Assembly (NCBI RefSeq): GCF_900107175.1
Contig: NZ_FNOZ01000014.1
Coordinates: 1 to 64,000, forward strand
Origin: Modestobacter sp. DSM 44400
GTDB lineage: Bacteria; Actinomycetota; Actinomycetes; Mycobacteriales; Geodermatophilaceae
Length of the DNA: 64,000 bases
Direction of reading: 5' to 3'
In this document: positions 52,471 through 62,318 of the stretch, piece by piece
Layout of the letters: every line of letters begins with the position of its first letter
Numbering within the stretch: position 1 is the first letter of the stretch
Program-made: the position numbers and the translations under genes
Notes under the pieces: generated by a model
The model's input: the letters and a program-made list of their open reading frames with translations, nothing else
Databases searched by the model: none
Told to the model about the DNA's origin: nothing

Positions 52471-53478
52471 TCAGCGGACGATGACCGTGAACTCCGTCTG
52501 CGCGATGAACTCGCCGATCACCGGAGCGCCGGGGACCTCGCCGCCCAGCAGCAGCCCGCCGGAGGTCTGTGCGTCGGCCAGCAGCAGTGCCTCGTCCTCG
52601 CCGACCGCCGACAGGTCCGTGTGCGGCCGGACCCAGTCCAGGTTGCGCCGGGTCCCGCCGGAGACCCAGCCGTCGGCCAGCGCCTGCCGGGCCCCGGTCA
52701 GGTACGGGACGGCGGCTGCGTCGACGACGGCGGTCACCCCGCTGGCCCGGGCCATCTTGTGCAGGTGCCCGAGCAACCCGAACCCGGTGACGTCGGTGCC
52801 GGCGCGGATGCCCGCGGCCACGGCGGCCCGGCCGGCCTCGGCGTTGAGCGCGGTCATCGAGGCGACCGCCTCCGCCGACACCTCGCCGGTGTTCTTGTGC
52901 CGGCTGTTGAGCACGCCGACGCCGAGCGGCTTGGTCAGCGACAGCGCCGTCCCGGCCACCGCCGCGTCGTTGCGGATCAGCCGGTCCAGGTCGACCAGGC
53001 CGGTGACGGCCATACCGTACTTGGGCTCCGGGTCGTCGATGGAGTGCCCGCCGCCGACGTGGCAGCCGGCCTCGTGGGCGACCTCCAGCCCGCCGCGCAG
53101 GACCTCGGCGGCGAGCTCGGCGGGCAGCACGTCACGCGGCCAGCCCAGCAGGTTCACCGCAACGACCGGGGTGCCGCCCATGGCGTAGACGTCGGAGAGC
53201 GCGTTGGCCGCGGCGATCCGGCCGAAGGTGTAGGCGTCGTCGACCACCGGGGTGAAGAAGTCGGTGGTCAGCACCAGCCCCTGGCCGCCGGCGATCCGGA
53301 CCACCGCGGCGTCGTCCCCGTCGTCCAGGCCGACGACCAGTTCGGCGGCCGGGTCGGTCGGCTCTGTGCCGGCGAGCCCGGCGACCACGGCTTCCAGCTC
53401 GCCGGGCGGGATCTTGCAGGCACAGCCGCCGCCGTGGGCGTACTGGGTCAACCGGACGGGGGAGGCGAGCGCGGTCAT
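52471..53478 (-). CDS. selD: Selenide, water dikinase (selenophosphate synthetase)
   Basis: 335 residues. It makes selenophosphate from selenide and ATP for SelA. The N-terminal LTQYAHGGGCACKIPPGEL has the catalytic position as Cys, so this SelD is not itself a selenoprotein. It also shows LTTDFFTPVVDDAYTFGRIA, HVGGGHSIDDPEPKYGMAVT and FGLLGHLHKMA. The ATG at 53478 lies 6 nt after TACCGT on the minus strand (53490-53485), so it is probably leaderless. It is the first gene of the selenocysteine island and is divergent from the ABC importer. Confidence 0.95.
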   Translation of the reverse strand: MTALASPVRLTQYAHGGGCACKIPPGELEAVVAGLAGTEPTDPAAELVVGLDDGDDAAVVRIAGGQGLVLTTDFFTPVVDDAYTFGRIAAANALSDVYAMGGTPVVAVNLLGWPRDVLPAELAAEVLRGGLEVAHEAGCHVGGGHSIDDPEPKYGMAVTGLVDLDRLIRNDAAVAGTALSLTKPLGVGVLNSRHKNTGEVSAEAVASMTALNAEAGRAAVAAGIRAGTDVTGFGLLGHLHKMARASGVTAVVDAAAVPYLTGARQALADGWVSGGTRRNLDWVRPHTDLSAVGEDEALLLADAQTSGGLLLGGEVPGAPVIGEFIAQTEFTVIVR

Positions 53479-53592
53479 GACAGCACGGTAGGTCGTCCGG
53501 ACGACGGTCGCCGCATCCCCGGTTCGGGACGGCGCTGGACACAACTGCATCTCGCGTTGCCGATCTGTGTCCGGGATCGCGTCCCGTGCCGT

Positions 53593-53604
53593 TATCTTCT
53601 GCCC
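53593..53604 (+). promoter_or_regulatory. -10 element TATCTT of a leaderless transcript
   Basis: TATCTT (53593-53598) lies 6 nt before a GTG at 53605, the same geometry as other starts in the window and the best -10 match in the selD-ABC intergenic region. No clear -35 box is seen. Confidence 0.55.
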
Positions 53605-53811
53605 GTGAGTACGCGCAACGGGGTGCGGGACGGCCGCGGCCCTCTCGTCGACCCCGCACCGGGTCGTCGTCGGAAGTTCGACCCATGGACACCTGACGGC
53701 GGTCCTGCGGCCCCGGCCGCCCGGCACGCTGCTCCACGGTCGGCCGGGACGTCCCCGGCGCGGGCAGGGGGGCGGTCCCGGATGGGTCTGGAGACGTCAT
53801 GGCGTCGGTAG
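53605..53811 (+). CDS. Possible leaderless small ORF ahead of the ABC importer
   Basis: 68 codons from the GTG that follows TATCTT: VSTRNGVRDGRGPLVDPAPG, then basic and alanine-rich sequence ending GLETSWRR and a TAG that overlaps the permease gene by 13 bp. There is no recognised domain. It may be a leader peptide whose translation couples to the permease, or simply the untranslated 5' part of the ABC mRNA with a fortuitous frame. TAG termination is notable because TAG is recoded here, but no SECIS-like hairpin follows. Confidence 0.3.
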   Translation: MSTRNGVRDGRGPLVDPAPGRRRKFDPWTPDGGPAAPAARHAAPRSAGTSPARAGGRSRMGLETSWRR

Positions 53812-57173: not shown

Positions 57174-57269
57174 GGAGGCGTCAGGGTGTCTGGTGGCCCC
57201 CGCGGCCTCTAAAGCCGACGTGACCGAGCAGCTCGGTCAGGCGGGTTCGATTCCCGTCCGCCTCCGCCA
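57174..57269 (+). tRNA. selC: tRNA-Sec with anticodon CTA (reads UAG)
   Basis: 96 nt with the hallmarks of tRNA-Sec: an acceptor GGAGGCG/CGCCTCC, a discriminator G and encoded CCA (57267-57269), a T arm GGTTCGATTCC, and a long variable arm with a perfect 8-bp stem (TGACCGAG, CAG loop, CTCGGTCA). The anticodon stem CGGC/GCCG encloses the loop CTCTAAA, so with U33 at 57208 the anticodon is CTA (57209-57211), not the usual TCA. It therefore pairs with UAG. A TAAGCT hexamer at 57161-57166 places the transcript start at the first tRNA base. It lies between the ABC genes and the TAG-containing selenoprotein gene. Confidence 0.93.
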
Positions 57270-57475
57270 GCCACAGGGCCGGCCGGGAACCTCCCGGCCG
57301 GCCTTGCTCGTACCCACCGCCGGCACTGTTGCGCGCAACCCAATGGGCCACTACCGTCCGCCGGGGAGCGTGAGCCGGATCACAAACTGCGCAGCGCTCC
57401 TTGCGTCGAGCCGCCGGCGTCCGCCGTGCGGTCCGCCCGGGACGGCGCTGTCCCGGCCGCACGAGAGGCCCCCGC

Positions 57476-59152
57476 ATGACCGCACCTCCGCAGGCCGCCG
57501 GCACCGTCCACGTCGTCGACCCGTCCCCGCTGAACTGGCTTTTCATCACCTGGAACACCATGGAAGAGCCCATCCGGATCGACGAGGCCGGACGCGTCGT
57601 CTACTCCCTCGCCGAGTCCTCGGAATGGCTCGACGACCGGACCCTGGAGCTCCGGCTGCGCCGCGGGGTCCGCTTTCAGGACGGCGAGCACTTCACCGCC
57701 CACAACATCAAGCAGAACTTCGACGAGATGCAGCGCTGGGCGGCTCCCCACCCGCCGGGCACCTGGCTGAACTTCCCACCGCAGTCCACCGCCGAGGTCG
57801 TCGACGACCACGTCCTGCGTTTCCACTTCCCCGGCCCGGACGGGCTGGCCATCGGCAAGTTCCGCGGCTTCCACGTCGCCTCCTCCGCCTTCTGGAACGG
57901 CAAGGACGCCCCCGGCTTCGGCTACAAGAAGTTCGGCTCGGGAGAGGGCCACTGGTAGGTGATCGACGAGCCGGGCCCGTGGGGCACCGGTCCGTTCACC
58001 CTGGTCCAGGGTGCTTCGTCGATCACCACCCGCAACGTCGTCATGAGCGCGGACCCCTACCGCGCGTCCTGGTTCATCGAGAGCGAGCAGCGTGATCCGC
58101 AGGTCGTGCTGGAGGCCAACCCCGACCACTGGAACCGCGCGGCCCGCGGCCCCCGCATCGAGCGGGCCGTGTTCCGCAACGACGTGACGCCGGACGAGGC
58201 GCTGCGGCTGGTGTGCGACACCGAGGGCGAAGTCGACATCGTCACCGAGGTGTCACCGGCGGACGCCCAGCGGGTGCAGGACTCCGCGCACGCCCGCCTG
58301 GTCGTCTGTGACGCCAACCGGGTCCTCGTCGGGATCCTCAACCGCAACAGCGACGCGCCGCTCGACGACCTCGGCGTCCGCCGCGCGCTGAACATGGCCA
58401 TCGACCGGCAGGCGATCATCGAGCAGGGGCTGGCCGGGTATGCGTCGGTGATCCCGGCGCTGACCCCGAACTGGTGCAGTGGCTTCCCCGCCGGCGCGGT
58501 CCCTTACGAGCTGGACGCGGCGAGAGCCCGCGAGGCGTTCTCCCGCGGGTCCTGGCCTGCGCGCCGGCCGCTGCGGATCGCCACGCCCGAGCCGTTCGCC
58601 GGGATCGCGCACATGGTGGCAGCCAGCATCCGCTCGACCCTGGACCTGATGGTGGAGGTCATCGTGGTGCCTCCGGACCAGGCCCCGGGCGGTGCCCGGG
58701 CGCTGGTGGAGAAGAAGCTCGACCTGCCGTGGGACGTGCTGATCCACGCCTGGTTCGACCTCTCCTCCGAGGCGCCACCCGCCGCGGTGCACCGGGAGTT
58801 CTTCGGGCTAGACGGCGCCTTTCGGGCCGGCCCGCCGGACGACGCCTTCGACGCGCTGTTCGACGAGATGAAGGTGCAGCTGGACGGCGGGGCACTGGTT
58901 GCGGTGGCCGAGCGGATCGACGCGTACGTGCACGACCAGGCGCTGGCGCTGTTCATCTGCGCCCCGCAGGCGCTGTACGCGGTGAACGAGCACGTCACGT
59001 TCTCCCCGTACAAGACGACCTTCGAGCTCGCCGAGGTCACCGTCGACGACCGGCACTGGTCGGTCACCGGCGGTGGAGCGGAGCTCGGCGCACGGACCGC
59101 ACGGTCGCAGTCGAAGCCGGGCTTCGCCGGCGCGGCCGGCAACGCCTGCTGA
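57476..59152 (+). CDS. Solute-binding-protein-like selenoprotein with in-frame TAG (Sec161)
   Basis: One continuous frame of 558 codons with a single TAG at 57956-57958 (codon 161). Before it the protein reads YKKFGSGEGHW and directly after it VIDEPGPWGTGPFTLVQ, with no break in homology, so the TAG is read as an amino acid. The fold is SBP_bac_5 (peptide/nickel type): TLELRLRRGVRFQDGEHFTA, LDDLGVRRALNMAIDRQAII, FSPYKTTFELAEVTVDD. There is no signal peptide or lipobox, so it is probably cytoplasmic. A hairpin 6 nt after the TAG and the adjacent tRNA-Sec(CUA), selA and selB support selenocysteine. ATG 57476 follows GAGAGG. Annotation pipelines will split it into two genes (57476-57958 and 57959-59152). 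Confidence 0.85.
57965..57996 (+). promoter_or_regulatory. Bacterial SECIS-like hairpin
   Basis: It begins 6 nt after the TAG. Pairs: 57965-57968 with 57993-57996, one A-C mismatch (57969/57992), G-T at 57970/57991, CCGG (57971-57974) with CCGG (57987-57990), a bulged A at 57986, and GCCC/GGGC (57975-57978 with 57982-57985) closing a GTG apical loop. A G at the first loop position, 20 nt after the codon, satisfies the general bacterial SECIS rules bound by SelB. Confidence 0.7.
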
Positions 59153-59232: not shown

Positions 59233-60561
59233 ATGACCGCCGACCCGAGCGCCGACCCCCGCCGACGGGTGCCGCGCACCGACACGCTGCTCGCCGAACC
59301 GCAGGTGGCCGCTGCCGCCGGCCGGCTCGGGCGCGAGCTGGTCAAAACGGCCGTGCAGACCGTGCAGACGCGGGTGCGCAGCGGTGACCTGCCCCCCGAG
59401 GACGCCGTCGCGGCCGTGCTGGCGGCGCTGCCCGGCACGGCCGGCAGCCTGCAGCCGGTGCTCAACGCCACCGGCGTCCTGGTGCACACCAACCTCGGCC
59501 GGGCCCCGCTGTCGGCCGCGGCGGTCGAGGCGGTGGTCGCCGCCAGCGGCACCACCGACGTCGAGCTGGACCTGGCCACCGGACGGCGCGGTCCCCGCGG
59601 CGAGGCGGCGCTGTCGGCGCTGCTGGCCGCCGTCCCCGCCGCCGAGGCCGCCCTCGTGGTCAACAACTGCGCGGCCGCCCTCGCGCTGGTCGCCACCTGC
59701 TTCTGCGCCGGCCGGGAGCTGGTCATCGCGCGCGGGGAGCTGGTGGAGATCGGCGACGGGTTCCGCATTCCCGAACTGCTCACCGCCACCGGGGCCCGGC
59801 TCCGCGAGGTCGGGACGACGAACCGCGTCGCGCTGGCCGACTACACCGCGGCGCTGACCCCGGACACCGGCGCGGTGCTCAAGGTGCACCCCTCCAACTT
59901 CGTCGTCCGCGGCTTCACCCGGGCCGTCGAGGTCGCCGAGCTGGCACCCGCGCTCGCCGGCACCGGCGTCCCGCTGGTCGCCGACGTCGGCTCCGGGCTG
60001 CTCCGCCCGCACCCGCTGCTGCCCGACGAGCCGGACCTGCAGACCGCTCTGGCCGACGGCGCGGACCTGGTGCTGGCCAGCGGCGACAAGCTGTTCGGCG
60101 GCCCGCAGGCCGGGTTGGTGCTCGGCCGCGCCGACCTCGTGCAGCGGTTGCGCCGCTCTCCGCTGTACCGCGCGCTGCGGGTCGACAAGACGACCCTGGC
60201 CGCGCTGGAGGCGACCCTGCGCGGACCGCAGCCGCCGGTTCACCAGATGCTCGACGCCGACCCAGACATGCTCCGGAAGCGGGCCAGGGCGCTGGCCGCC
60301 CGGCTGGTCGACGGCGGGCTGGACGCGGTCGCCGTCGCCTCCACCGCCCGGGTCGGCGGGGGAGGAGCCCCGGAGTTCGAACTGCCCAGCTGTGCCGTCT
60401 CGCTGCCTGCCGCCTTTGCCGAGCCGCTGCGCCGCGGACCGCGGCCGGTGGTCGGCCACCTCGCCGGGGACCGCACCCTGCTCGACCTGCGCAGCCTGCT
60501 CCCGGCCCAGGACGACGCCCTGGCCGACGCGGTGCTCGCGGTAGCGCAGCGGTGGACGTGA
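59233..60561 (+). CDS. selA: L-seryl-tRNA(Sec) selenium transferase
   Basis: 442 residues, PLP enzyme that converts Ser-tRNA(Sec) to Sec-tRNA(Sec). It shows NATGVLVHTNLGRAPLSAAA, ELDLATGRRGPRG, VNNCAAALALVATCF, EIGDGFRIPELL, VGTTNRVALADY, and the PLP lysine Lys286 in LASGDKLFGGPQAGL. The N-terminal ~65 residues are the tRNA-binding domain. The ATG at 59233 lies 8 nt after TACGCT. It overlaps selB by 4 bp. Confidence 0.96.
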   Translation: MTADPSADPRRRVPRTDTLLAEPQVAAAAGRLGRELVKTAVQTVQTRVRSGDLPPEDAVAAVLAALPGTAGSLQPVLNATGVLVHTNLGRAPLSAAAVEAVVAASGTTDVELDLATGRRGPRGEAALSALLAAVPAAEAALVVNNCAAALALVATCFCAGRELVIARGELVEIGDGFRIPELLTATGARLREVGTTNRVALADYTAALTPDTGAVLKVHPSNFVVRGFTRAVEVAELAPALAGTGVPLVADVGSGLLRPHPLLPDEPDLQTALADGADLVLASGDKLFGGPQAGLVLGRADLVQRLRRSPLYRALRVDKTTLAALEATLRGPQPPVHQMLDADPDMLRKRARALAARLVDGGLDAVAVASTARVGGGGAPEFELPSCAVSLPAAFAEPLRRGPRPVVGHLAGDRTLLDLRSLLPAQDDALADAVLAVAQRWT

Positions 60562-62318
60562 CCGGCGCCGGCATGGACGTCGTCGCCACTGCCGGGCACG
60601 TCGACCACGGCAAGTCCACGCTGGTCAAGGCACTGACCGGGATGGAGCCGGACCGCTGGGAGGAGGAGCGCCGCCGCGGGCTGACCATCGACCTGGGGTT
60701 CGCCTGGACGACGCTGCCTTCGGGTCGCCGACTGGCGGTCGTCGACGTCCCCGGGCACGAGAAGTTCGTCGGCAACATGCTGGCCGGCGTCGGCTCGGTG
60801 CCGGCCGCCCTCATCGTGGTTGCGGCGGACGACGGCTGGTCGGCGCAGACCGCCGAGCACGTCGCCGTCCTGGACGCCCTCGGCGTGCGGCACGGGCTGC
60901 TGGTCGTGACCAAGGCCGATGCCGCCGACCCGGCACCGGCGCTCGCCGACGCCCTGGACCGGCTGGCCGGCACGTCGCTGGGCAGACTGCCGGCCGTCGC
61001 GGCCAGCGCACGCACCGGCGCCGGCGTGCCCGAGGTCGCGGCGGCGCTGGAGTCGGTGCTGGCCGGGCTGCCCGCGCCGGACGTCACCGCGCCCGTGCGG
61101 CTGTGGGTCGACCGCGCCTTCACCATCCGCGGCGCCGGCACCGTGGTCACCGGCACGCTCGCCGCCGGCACCGTCGCGGTGAGTGACCGGCTGGAGCTCG
61201 GCGGGCGGCCGGTGACAGTGCGGGGGCTGCAGTCCCTCGGCGAGGCGGTGCCGACCGCGTCGGCCACCGCCCGGGTCGCGCTGAACCTGCGCGGCGTCGC
61301 GGTGGAGGAGGTCGCCCGTGGCGACGCCCTGCTGACCCCGGACGCCTTCCGGCGCACCGACGCCCTCGACGTCACGCTGGTCACGCCGGTCGAGGACCGG
61401 CTGCCGGCCGAGCTCGTCGTCCACGTGGGGTCGGCGACCGTCGCCGCGCGGGTGCGCCCACTCGACGGGTCGGCGCTGCGGCTGCGGCTGACCGAGCCGC
61501 TGCCGCTGCGGGTGGGCGACCGGCTGCTGCTGCGCGACCCCGGCACGCGCCGCGTGCTGGGCGCCGACGTGCGCGACGTCGACCCGCCGGAGCTGGGCCG
61601 GCGGGGGGCGGCCCGCACCCGCGCCGCCGAGCTCGCCGAACAGCCGCCGGGTGCGGGCGGGGCCCGCGCCGACCTGGCCCGGCGCCGGGTCGTGCGGCGG
61701 GTGGACTTCGTCGCGATGGGCTGGCCAGTGCCGCCCGAGGCGACGTCGACCGGGCCGTGGCTGCTGGCGCCGGGGCTGGTCGAGGAGCTCGCGGCCCGCG
61801 TGCTGCCGCTGGTGGCGGGCTACCGGAACCGGCTGCCGCTGGAGCCGGGGCCGCCGGTGGAGTGGGTGCGCCAGGAGCTCGGCCTGCCCGACGCCGAGCT
61901 GGTGGCCGGCGTCGTCCGGGCGCCACTGGCGCTGCGCGGCGGGCGGGTGGTGGTCGCCGGCGCCGGACTGCCGCCGGCGGTGCAGCGTGCCGTGGACGGC
62001 GTTCGGGCGCGACTGGCCGAGTCGCCGTTCGCCGCTCCGGAGGCCGGTGACCTGGCCGCCGCCGGGCTGGGTCCCCGTGAGCTGGCCGCCGCGGTGCGCG
62101 AGGAGCTACTGGTGCGGATCGCCGACGCCGTGTACCTGGCGCCCGGCGTCGAGGCAGAGGCGACGGCCCGGCTGGCGTCTGTGCCGCAGCCGTTCACCCT
62201 CAGCCAGGCCCGGACGGCGTGGGGGACCAGCCGCCGGGTCGCCGTCCCGCTGGCCGAGTGGCTCGACGCCCGCGGCGTCACCGAGCGGCTGCCGGACAAC
62301 ACCCGCCGACTGCGGTGA
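60558..62318 (+). CDS. selB: Selenocysteine-specific elongation factor SelB
   Basis: 586 residues from GTG 60558, which overlaps the selA stop (GTGA); ATG 60573 is the alternative. The GTPase domain has TAGHVDHGKSTLVKAL (G1), GLTIDLGF (G2), VVDVPGHEKF (G3) and VTKAD (G4). EF-Tu-like domains II and III follow (FTIRGAGTVVTGTL). From about residue 370 there are winged-helix repeats that bind the SECIS hairpin (EWVRQELGLPDAELVAGVVR; FTLSQARTAWGTSRRVAVPL). It delivers Sec-tRNA to recoded codons. Nothing in it contacts the anticodon in known SelB structures, which is compatible with a CUA tRNA. Confidence 0.95.
   Translation: MTGAGMDVVATAGHVDHGKSTLVKALTGMEPDRWEEERRRGLTIDLGFAWTTLPSGRRLAVVDVPGHEKFVGNMLAGVGSVPAALIVVAADDGWSAQTAEHVAVLDALGVRHGLLVVTKADAADPAPALADALDRLAGTSLGRLPAVAASARTGAGVPEVAAALESVLAGLPAPDVTAPVRLWVDRAFTIRGAGTVVTGTLAAGTVAVSDRLELGGRPVTVRGLQSLGEAVPTASATARVALNLRGVAVEEVARGDALLTPDAFRRTDALDVTLVTPVEDRLPAELVVHVGSATVAARVRPLDGSALRLRLTEPLPLRVGDRLLLRDPGTRRVLGADVRDVDPPELGRRGAARTRAAELAEQPPGAGGARADLARRRVVRRVDFVAMGWPVPPEATSTGPWLLAPGLVEELAARVLPLVAGYRNRLPLEPGPPVEWVRQELGLPDAELVAGVVRAPLALRGGRVVVAGAGLPPAVQRAVDGVRARLAESPFAAPEAGDLAAAGLGPRELAAAVREELLVRIADAVYLAPGVEAEATARLASVPQPFTLSQARTAWGTSRRVAVPLAEWLDARGVTERLPDNTRRLR

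Follow-up and report, generated by a model that had tools for sequence, protein, structure and literature searches.

A tRNA-Sec Gene with a CUA Anticodon and a Neighboring SBP_bac_5-Fold Gene with In-Frame UAG, a Proposed Selenoprotein, in Geodermatophilaceae

The tRNA-Sec Gene and Its Neighbors

The window, by which we mean the whole 64,000-nucleotide stretch of DNA analyzed here, contains the tRNA-Sec gene selC, the genes for SelA, SelB, and SelD, and, between selC and selA, a gene with an in-frame TAG that we propose encodes a selenoprotein of the SBP_bac_5 fold (Table 1). This gene, hereafter the SBP gene, starts 207 bp downstream of the tRNA, and a sugar-type ABC transporter, recognized by eye, is encoded between selD and selC. 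SelD is the Cys form (GGGCACK), with homology from approximately residue 89 of its ORF.

Table 1. Features at the selC locus, in window positions
Feature	Position	Strand	Basis
selD ORF, selenide, water dikinase	52471..53727	-	TIGR00476, 385.5 bits, cut-off 125
selC, tRNA-Sec gene, anticodon CUA, CCA encoded	57174..57269	+	RF01852, ARAGORN, direct reading
Anticodon CTA (CUA) of selC	57209..57211	+	ARAGORN and direct reading
Proposed selenoprotein gene, SBP_bac_5 fold, 558 residues, one in-frame TAG	57476..59152	+	
In-frame TAG, proposed Sec codon, residue 161	57956..57958	+	
SECIS-like hairpin after the UAG, apical loop GUG	57965..57996	+	Pairing, covariation, folding
selA, L-seryl-tRNA(Sec) selenium transferase	59233..60561	+	TIGR00474, 421.6 bits, cut-off 267.9; start codon by eye
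selB, Sec-specific elongation factor	60552..62318	+	TIGR00475, 283.2 bits, cut-off 242.25

The tRNA-Sec covariance model RF01852 matches selC over its full length (model positions 1-91, window 57174-57265, plus strand) at 66.9 bits, above the gathering score of 47, and ARAGORN, which labels the gene tRNA-Pyl, places the ends at 57174-57269 and reads the anticodon as cta. Read directly, the sequence has the loop CTCTAAA from 57207, a G discriminator (G73) at 57266, and the CCA at 57267-57269; the long variable arm is present in the model alignment. These results bear out the original prediction of a tRNA-Sec with a CUA anticodon at this position. The prediction also described the tRNA as otherwise canonical, which holds for the variable arm and the discriminator and fails at the acceptor arm, where seven pairs are followed by a U·C mismatch at the eighth. 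In the accessible text of PMC5330540, the bacterial tRNA-Sec fold is given as 8/5. Base 8 stands opposite a C also in the CUA and UCA relatives that were read (among L037-L065), leaving seven pairs there too, and the acceptor arm of these tRNAs is possibly a 7/5 helix, or an 8/5 helix with a mismatch.

RF01852 gives five matches in the assembly of this genome (G000; 99.93% complete, 182 contigs). The other four are tRNA-Ser or tRNA-Leu by ARAGORN, one of them a tRNA-Ser(UGA) that scores 48.1 bits, just over the gathering score, and the assembly therefore holds no UCA-type tRNA-Sec; no second tRNA-Sec of any type was found in it by RF01852 and ARAGORN. The genome-wide search for a UCA-type copy, a find that would have contradicted the predicted reassignment, thus left the prediction standing.

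The UAG Code in the Genome and across the Family

UAG occupies the selenocysteine site in other genes of the same genome. FdhA (TIGR01553, contig C98) reads QIENQARI-U-HSSTV, where U is TAG, and a UGSC-family gene on contig C94, whose match of 98.9 bits lies under the curated cut-off of 125 for that family, reads VAAGD-U-GSC, again with TAG. Together with the SBP gene, which the original prediction overlooked, these sites agree with its claim that UAG is the selenocysteine codon here. The FdhA of other family genomes (L114-L126) reads QARI-U-HSATV with TAG in 13 of 13 cases among the matches listed. Within genus g8, an FdhA of another type (CNRT-TGA-HAPSV) carries TGA in G074, which is a UCA genome, and in G072. 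A TGA-bearing FdhA row from the CUA genome G080 was considered as a candidate for UGA serving as a selenocysteine codon beside a CUA tRNA-Sec and was rejected: its TGA lies next to a frame break and off the Sec site. TIGR01591 was likewise tried as the formate dehydrogenase model and set aside in favor of TIGR01553, which is the right model; there is no TAG in the TIGR01591 rows.

The CUA form of tRNA-Sec was found by motif search in 101 of the 112 Geodermatophilaceae genomes and the backward control in 0, so the anticodon in the window is neither a chance occurrence nor a read error. Of the 11 genomes lacking the motif, nine belong to genera g6, g7, and g8; the others, G098 and G099, are incomplete genomes of genus g1 in which RF01852 finds no tRNA-Sec at E ≤ 1e-8. 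At that same threshold the model matches in 109 of the 112 genomes, a count in which matches of ∼50 bits (e.g., in G072) may be tRNA-Ser. Seven tRNA-Sec sequences from g6-g8 were read (L037-L042 and L045) and all are UCA; in the rest of these genera, G072 has weak RF01852 matches only and G068 has none. A single relative, G059, carries a CUA copy plus a second, divergent UCA tRNA-Sec on another contig (L070, C17, 1169-1263), the latter surrounded by transposase-like ORFs.

UAG is a rare stop in the window: of 32 gene-like ORFs, 30 end in TGA and 2 in TAG, and one of those TAGs is the proposed Sec codon of the SBP gene. In small samples from relatives, TAG stops make up 9 of 33 in CUA pieces and 6 of 16 in UCA pieces.

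The SBP Gene

With translation table 11 the SBP gene appears as two ORFs in the same frame, one ending at the TAG (57401-57958) and one following it (57959-59152). Read through, positions 57476-59149 encode one SBP_bac_5 protein (PF00496, 130.3 bits; cut-off 32.4), with the Sec-site motif GEGHW-U-VID.PGPW. The predicted structural model is one full SBP fold that spans the stop; its comparison by VIA-align covers the top 1000 Foldseek chains, and families beyond that list may match as well. Inspection by eye revealed no signal peptide or lipobox in the window gene or in 17 homologues with readable N-termini (23 tried), and the protein is probably cytoplasmic. A GNAC-COOH end, after a low-confidence linker, is conserved in the window protein (residue 558) and in its clade-1 orthologues and is absent from the second-clade rows of the alignment; its Cys might pair with Sec161.

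The SBP gene adjoins sel genes in three lineages, namely, Geodermatophilaceae, Pseudonocardia, and Methylobacterium. The order selC-SBP-selA-selB is found in the window, L145, L146, and L147 (UGA), and, with a broken SBP gene, in L174 and L076; L144 has SBP-selA-selB, with the tRNA cut off by the contig end, and G059 has selD-selC-selA-selB without an SBP gene. In Pseudonocardia (L149 and L189, UGA), selD, SBP, selA, and selB are clustered, selA being set off by at least 1.2 kb in front of it, and the L189 match covers SBP residues 5-216 only. The Methylobacterium radiotolerans SBP gene is directly upstream of an annotated selB, in a gene table that is incomplete and lists no gene over the SBP itself. 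Outside these sel-linked lineages, no common neighbor and no shared theme emerged among the 24 neighboring ORFs scanned. In a Pseudonocardiaceae MAG (L148, 391-5237), a formamidase gene, FmdA (653.5 bits), lies upstream of the SBP gene, as do ORFs of 518 and 551 aa that resemble each other and look tubulin-like by eye; neither of these two ORFs has an NCBIfam match at E ≤ 1e-20.

A SECIS-like Hairpin Follows the UAG

The hairpin in Table 1 was analyzed in an alignment of the window with 50 of the 57 named-genome loci that hold the Sec site (46 distinct rows). Five loci (L161, L162, L166, L174, and L190) were left out as having the same or nearly the same stretch as a row that was kept, and two (L187 and L199) as decayed or broken; the latter two fold at -11.6 and -13.2 kcal/mol. 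The helix comprises columns 10-13/38-41 and 16-23/27-35 and closes on the GUG apical loop. Within it, 94.0% of the cells are paired, compared with 27.0 to 61.2% in slid controls, and 11 cells carry double changes, compared with 3.2 (sd 1.6) in shuffles, of which 0 of 500 reach 11. None of the 500 shuffles reaches the covariation score or the paired share either. Two of the five covariation measures do not rise above the shuffles, these being double-change pairs (3, a value reached by 153 of 500 shuffles) and further pair types (9, reached by 373 of 500). Because the hairpin lies inside a conserved protein motif, part of its pairing may reflect coding constraint. In seven low-GC Bacillaceae-type genes, third positions are 57 to 71% GC in the hairpin codons versus 28 to 47% in the remainder of the gene, a comparison made over seven codons per gene, TGG included.

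For the window's own hairpin stretch, the folding energy is -25.8 kcal/mol (z -2.73), a value matched by 3 of 200 shuffles. The loop of a bacterial SECIS usually starts 16-37 nt after the codon, and here the distance is 20 nt. No Rfam family covers 57850-58150 as a SECIS; the four matches there are weak, unrelated, and all under their gathering scores. A second hairpin after the first (columns 44-56, 83.6% of cells paired) was considered and not retained as an element, since coding may account for its pairing. The predicted structure for the first SBP clade includes a longer, enclosing stem. In the selC-linked clade, at window positions 57957-58028, a 12-base inverted repeat (57958-57969 with 58015-58026) surrounds both this second hairpin and the SECIS-like one, and the repeat and both hairpins are together predicted to form a three-way element.

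The Codon at the Sec Site Matches the tRNA-Sec Anticodon

Among the 112 family genomes, close SBP orthologues with one TAG are found in G096, G063, and G111; the genes of G048 and G058 have the TAG and a frame break, and that of the UCA genome G074 has TGA. A second SBP clade, ∼47% identical, has TAG at the same place in G004, G005, G009, G024, G044, G058, G060, and G000 itself. The second-clade paralogue in G000 (L066, C115 43225-44791) has the UAG and is frame-shifted, through decay or an assembly error. A second-clade copy in the UCA genome G075 (L018/L187) has decayed: its Sec site reads TAA, and another TAG lies downstream. This TAA could be an intermediate between TGA and TAG.

Scanning named genomes for N-terminal patterns returned 62 loci from Modestobacter, Geodermatophilus, Blastococcus, Pseudonocardia, Rubrobacter, Solirubrobacterales, Euzebyaceae, Dormibacteria, several Bacillaceae, a Rhodospirillales bin, and others. 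As the patterns lay at the N-terminus, the scan exerted no selection for the codon. The Sec site is present in 57 of these loci and reads TGA in 46, TAG in 10, TAA in 1 (the decayed G075 copy), and a sense codon in 0; several of the 57 are interrupted at other places by additional stops or frame breaks, and not every locus represents a separate genome (L160 and L163, for example, share one). The remaining five are N-terminal remnants in the match frame (L200-L202) or lie at a contig end (L203 and L204). A wider, pooled reading of the site gives 69 TGA, 13 TAG, and 1 TAA, which is not a count of organisms. All 10 TAG loci belong to Geodermatophilaceae (eight CUA-list genomes: G004, G005, G044, G058, G060, G063, G096, and G111). 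A profile search across the phylum matched 24 of 396 genomes at E ≤ 1e-40, comprising our own, which reads TAG at the Sec site, and 23 from one family, f19, which read TGA there. A further homologue, 39% identical, is encoded on a Methylobacterium radiotolerans plasmid with TGA in AEGHW-U-VIDAPGPWGTG; a search of that plasmid found no tRNA-Sec. No Cys homologue was seen among the 57 loci holding the site or the 24 matching phylum genomes (E ≤ 1e-40), and such an absence is unusual for selenoproteins.

The carriers of UGA forms were also searched for tRNA-Sec, with 42 of the 46 TGA loci, lying in 41 genomes, covered. A match was obtained in 35 of the 41 genomes, and 6 gave none under the strict filter (E ≤ 1e-9). 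Of the 36 matches in these carriers, 30 were fetched, and the loop is CTTCAAA (UCA) in all 27 that could be read; the other three (L239, L255, and L262) were unreadable by pattern. Codon and anticodon thus agree: the TAG loci are in CUA-list genomes, and TGA is found in carriers whose readable tRNA-Sec is UCA. As homologues outside Geodermatophilaceae use UGA and their tRNA-Sec, where read, is UCA, the SBP codon has followed the tRNA. On a tree of 41 proteins, the UAG rows are accounted for by two changes among UGA rows, and 0 of 500 shuffles give so low a number; the codon therefore switched in two clades, both within Geodermatophilaceae. The nesting of the UAG rows, taken with UCA as the common state, leads us to infer that the direction of the switch was UGA to UAG.

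How the UAG Is Read

We infer that selenocysteine is inserted at the UAG of the SBP gene, and UAG is very probably the selenocysteine codon of this genome, decoded by SelA, SelB, SelD, and tRNA-Sec(CUA), with FdhA, the UGSC-family protein, and the SBP-fold protein as clients. SelA would convert Ser-tRNA-Sec(CUA) to Sec-tRNA-Sec with selenophosphate supplied by SelD, and SelB would then bring the Sec-tRNA-Sec to UAG codons that have a hairpin after them.

It is very unlikely that the UAG is a true stop, separating two proteins, or that the locus is a pseudogene. A GTG codon follows the UAG directly, so that a gene finder sees two ORFs, and broken copies and remnants of the gene do exist (frame breaks in G048, G058, and the C115 copy of this genome, decay in G075, and extra stops or frame breaks in several of the named loci). 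However, all 57 loci that hold the site, drawn from four phyla, have their stop at this residue, written as UGA or, within Geodermatophilaceae, as UAG. The aligned proteins, 40 in number, do not vary at the Sec column; these rows (the window, L007, and 38 of 50 named loci) were chosen for one internal stop, yet 0 of the 50 loci examined lacked a stop. The 12 named loci left out of the alignment have a broken frame or an additional stop, which in some is simply where the gene ends. Conservation and the codon-position pattern also persist beyond the stop: between the window and L145, from Geodermatophilus sp. DSM 45219, whose gene has one TAG and is otherwise unbroken, protein identity is 0.94 upstream and 0.85 downstream, and the downstream differences at codon positions 1, 2, and 3 are 0.088, 0.086, and 0.292. 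The predicted single SBP fold across the stop and the covarying hairpin after it likewise argue against termination at this codon.

Programmed readthrough by an ordinary near-cognate tRNA, in place of selenocysteine insertion, is very unlikely. Readthrough with a downstream hairpin is known in principle, but it would leave unexplained why the codon is UAG in genomes with a CUA tRNA-Sec and UGA elsewhere, why most genomes with UGA forms (the 35 of 41 above) have a tRNA-Sec match, and why the gene sits beside sel genes. A dual code, in which both UGA and UAG are decoded as selenocysteine and the CUA tRNA is an extra, is highly improbable. Its precedent would be the relative G059 with both tRNA types; however, our genome has a single tRNA-Sec and its three Sec sites read are all UAG, and the UCA copy of G059 has transposases in abundance around it, the 19 kb read there containing nothing that matches SelA, SelB, or SelD. 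We give almost no credence to a pyrrolysine tRNA or another amber suppressor that would read UAG as Pyl or Ser, the reading to which the ARAGORN label tRNA-Pyl(cta) points, given the full-length tRNA-Sec model match with its long variable arm, a best PylS score under the cut-off (22.5 bits against 178.15, with some match in 13 of 14 control genomes too), the presence of selA, selB, and selD, and UAG at the classic selenoprotein positions U-H-S of FdhA and UGSC.

Possible Function of the SBP Protein

Taking the UAG as selenocysteine, the linkage to sel genes in three lineages suggests that the SBP protein takes part in selenium handling. Since the gene's surroundings in the other lineages have no theme in common, a general role in redox chemistry or binding is as likely as one in selenium handling. 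We tentatively propose a cytosolic ligand-binding or redox role for Sec161 in selenium or thiol/metal handling, a possibility that we hold at rather less than even. A narrower proposal, and a doubtful one, is that the protein is more than a client and belongs to the selenium machinery itself: it would carry or sense a selenium compound in the cytosol, would depend strictly on Sec, and would have had its codon changed from UGA to UAG together with the tRNA.

Comparison with Known Systems

The UAG-Sec code itself is already published, and the window is a further member of that case. The original prediction pointed to a report of UAG-reading tRNA-Sec (Mukai 2016), and this reference proved sound: PMC5330540 (Santesmasses 2017) gives three Geodermatophilaceae genomes with tRNA-Sec(CUA) and credits to Mukai et al. 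this anticodon, with formate dehydrogenases and UGSC proteins as the selenoproteins, to which it adds AhpC in Blastococcus saxobsidens. UAG use is also cited in PMC8124441. The window resembles the Geodermatophilus and Blastococcus cases described in these sources (Mukai 2016; PMC5330540) in its family, its CUA anticodon, and UAG in formate dehydrogenase and UGSC genes. It differs in coming from another species (genus g1, probably Modestobacter), which it adds to the published code, and in the adjacent, proposed SBP selenoprotein, which the accessible text of PMC5330540 does not name.

The SBP_bac_5-fold protein appears to be a selenoprotein family new to the inventories. By name or domain, this type is absent from the 119 prokaryotic families in Table 1 of PMC13188914 (2026), and such an SBP selenoprotein is not named in the accessible portions of PMC9312934, PMC5029168, PMC1794560, and PMC5322559; Mukai 2016 may nonetheless mention the gene. 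No cysteine form was seen in this family, which ranges over Actinomycetota, Bacillota, Dormibacterota, and Alphaproteobacteria, and a search method that depends on Cys homologues could overlook it; the authors of the deep-Sep method note in PMC12013277 that families without such homologues may escape their method. The natural switch from UGA to UAG inside one gene family allows the agreement of codon and anticodon to be tested cleanly, and one more substrate-binding-protein family would be shown to contain selenium.

Compared with the family-5 solute-binding proteins (PF00496: OppA, DppA, NikA, and GsiB/YliB), the window SBP is without an evident signal peptide or lipobox, and its Sec is in a loop before the G(T/S)GPF strand. 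It does not reach the equivalogs of this family, the best being NikA at 70.5 bits against a cut-off of 600. SaoX and SaoB (NF040735 and NF040727), as given in Table 1 of PMC13188914, are ABC transporter proteins and also selenoproteins of the substrate-binding type. Their two models gave no match in the NCBIfam scan at E ≤ 0.001, and the Sec motifs listed for them in that source, UxP and CUxxT, differ from the GEGHW-U-VID.PGPW of the window SBP.
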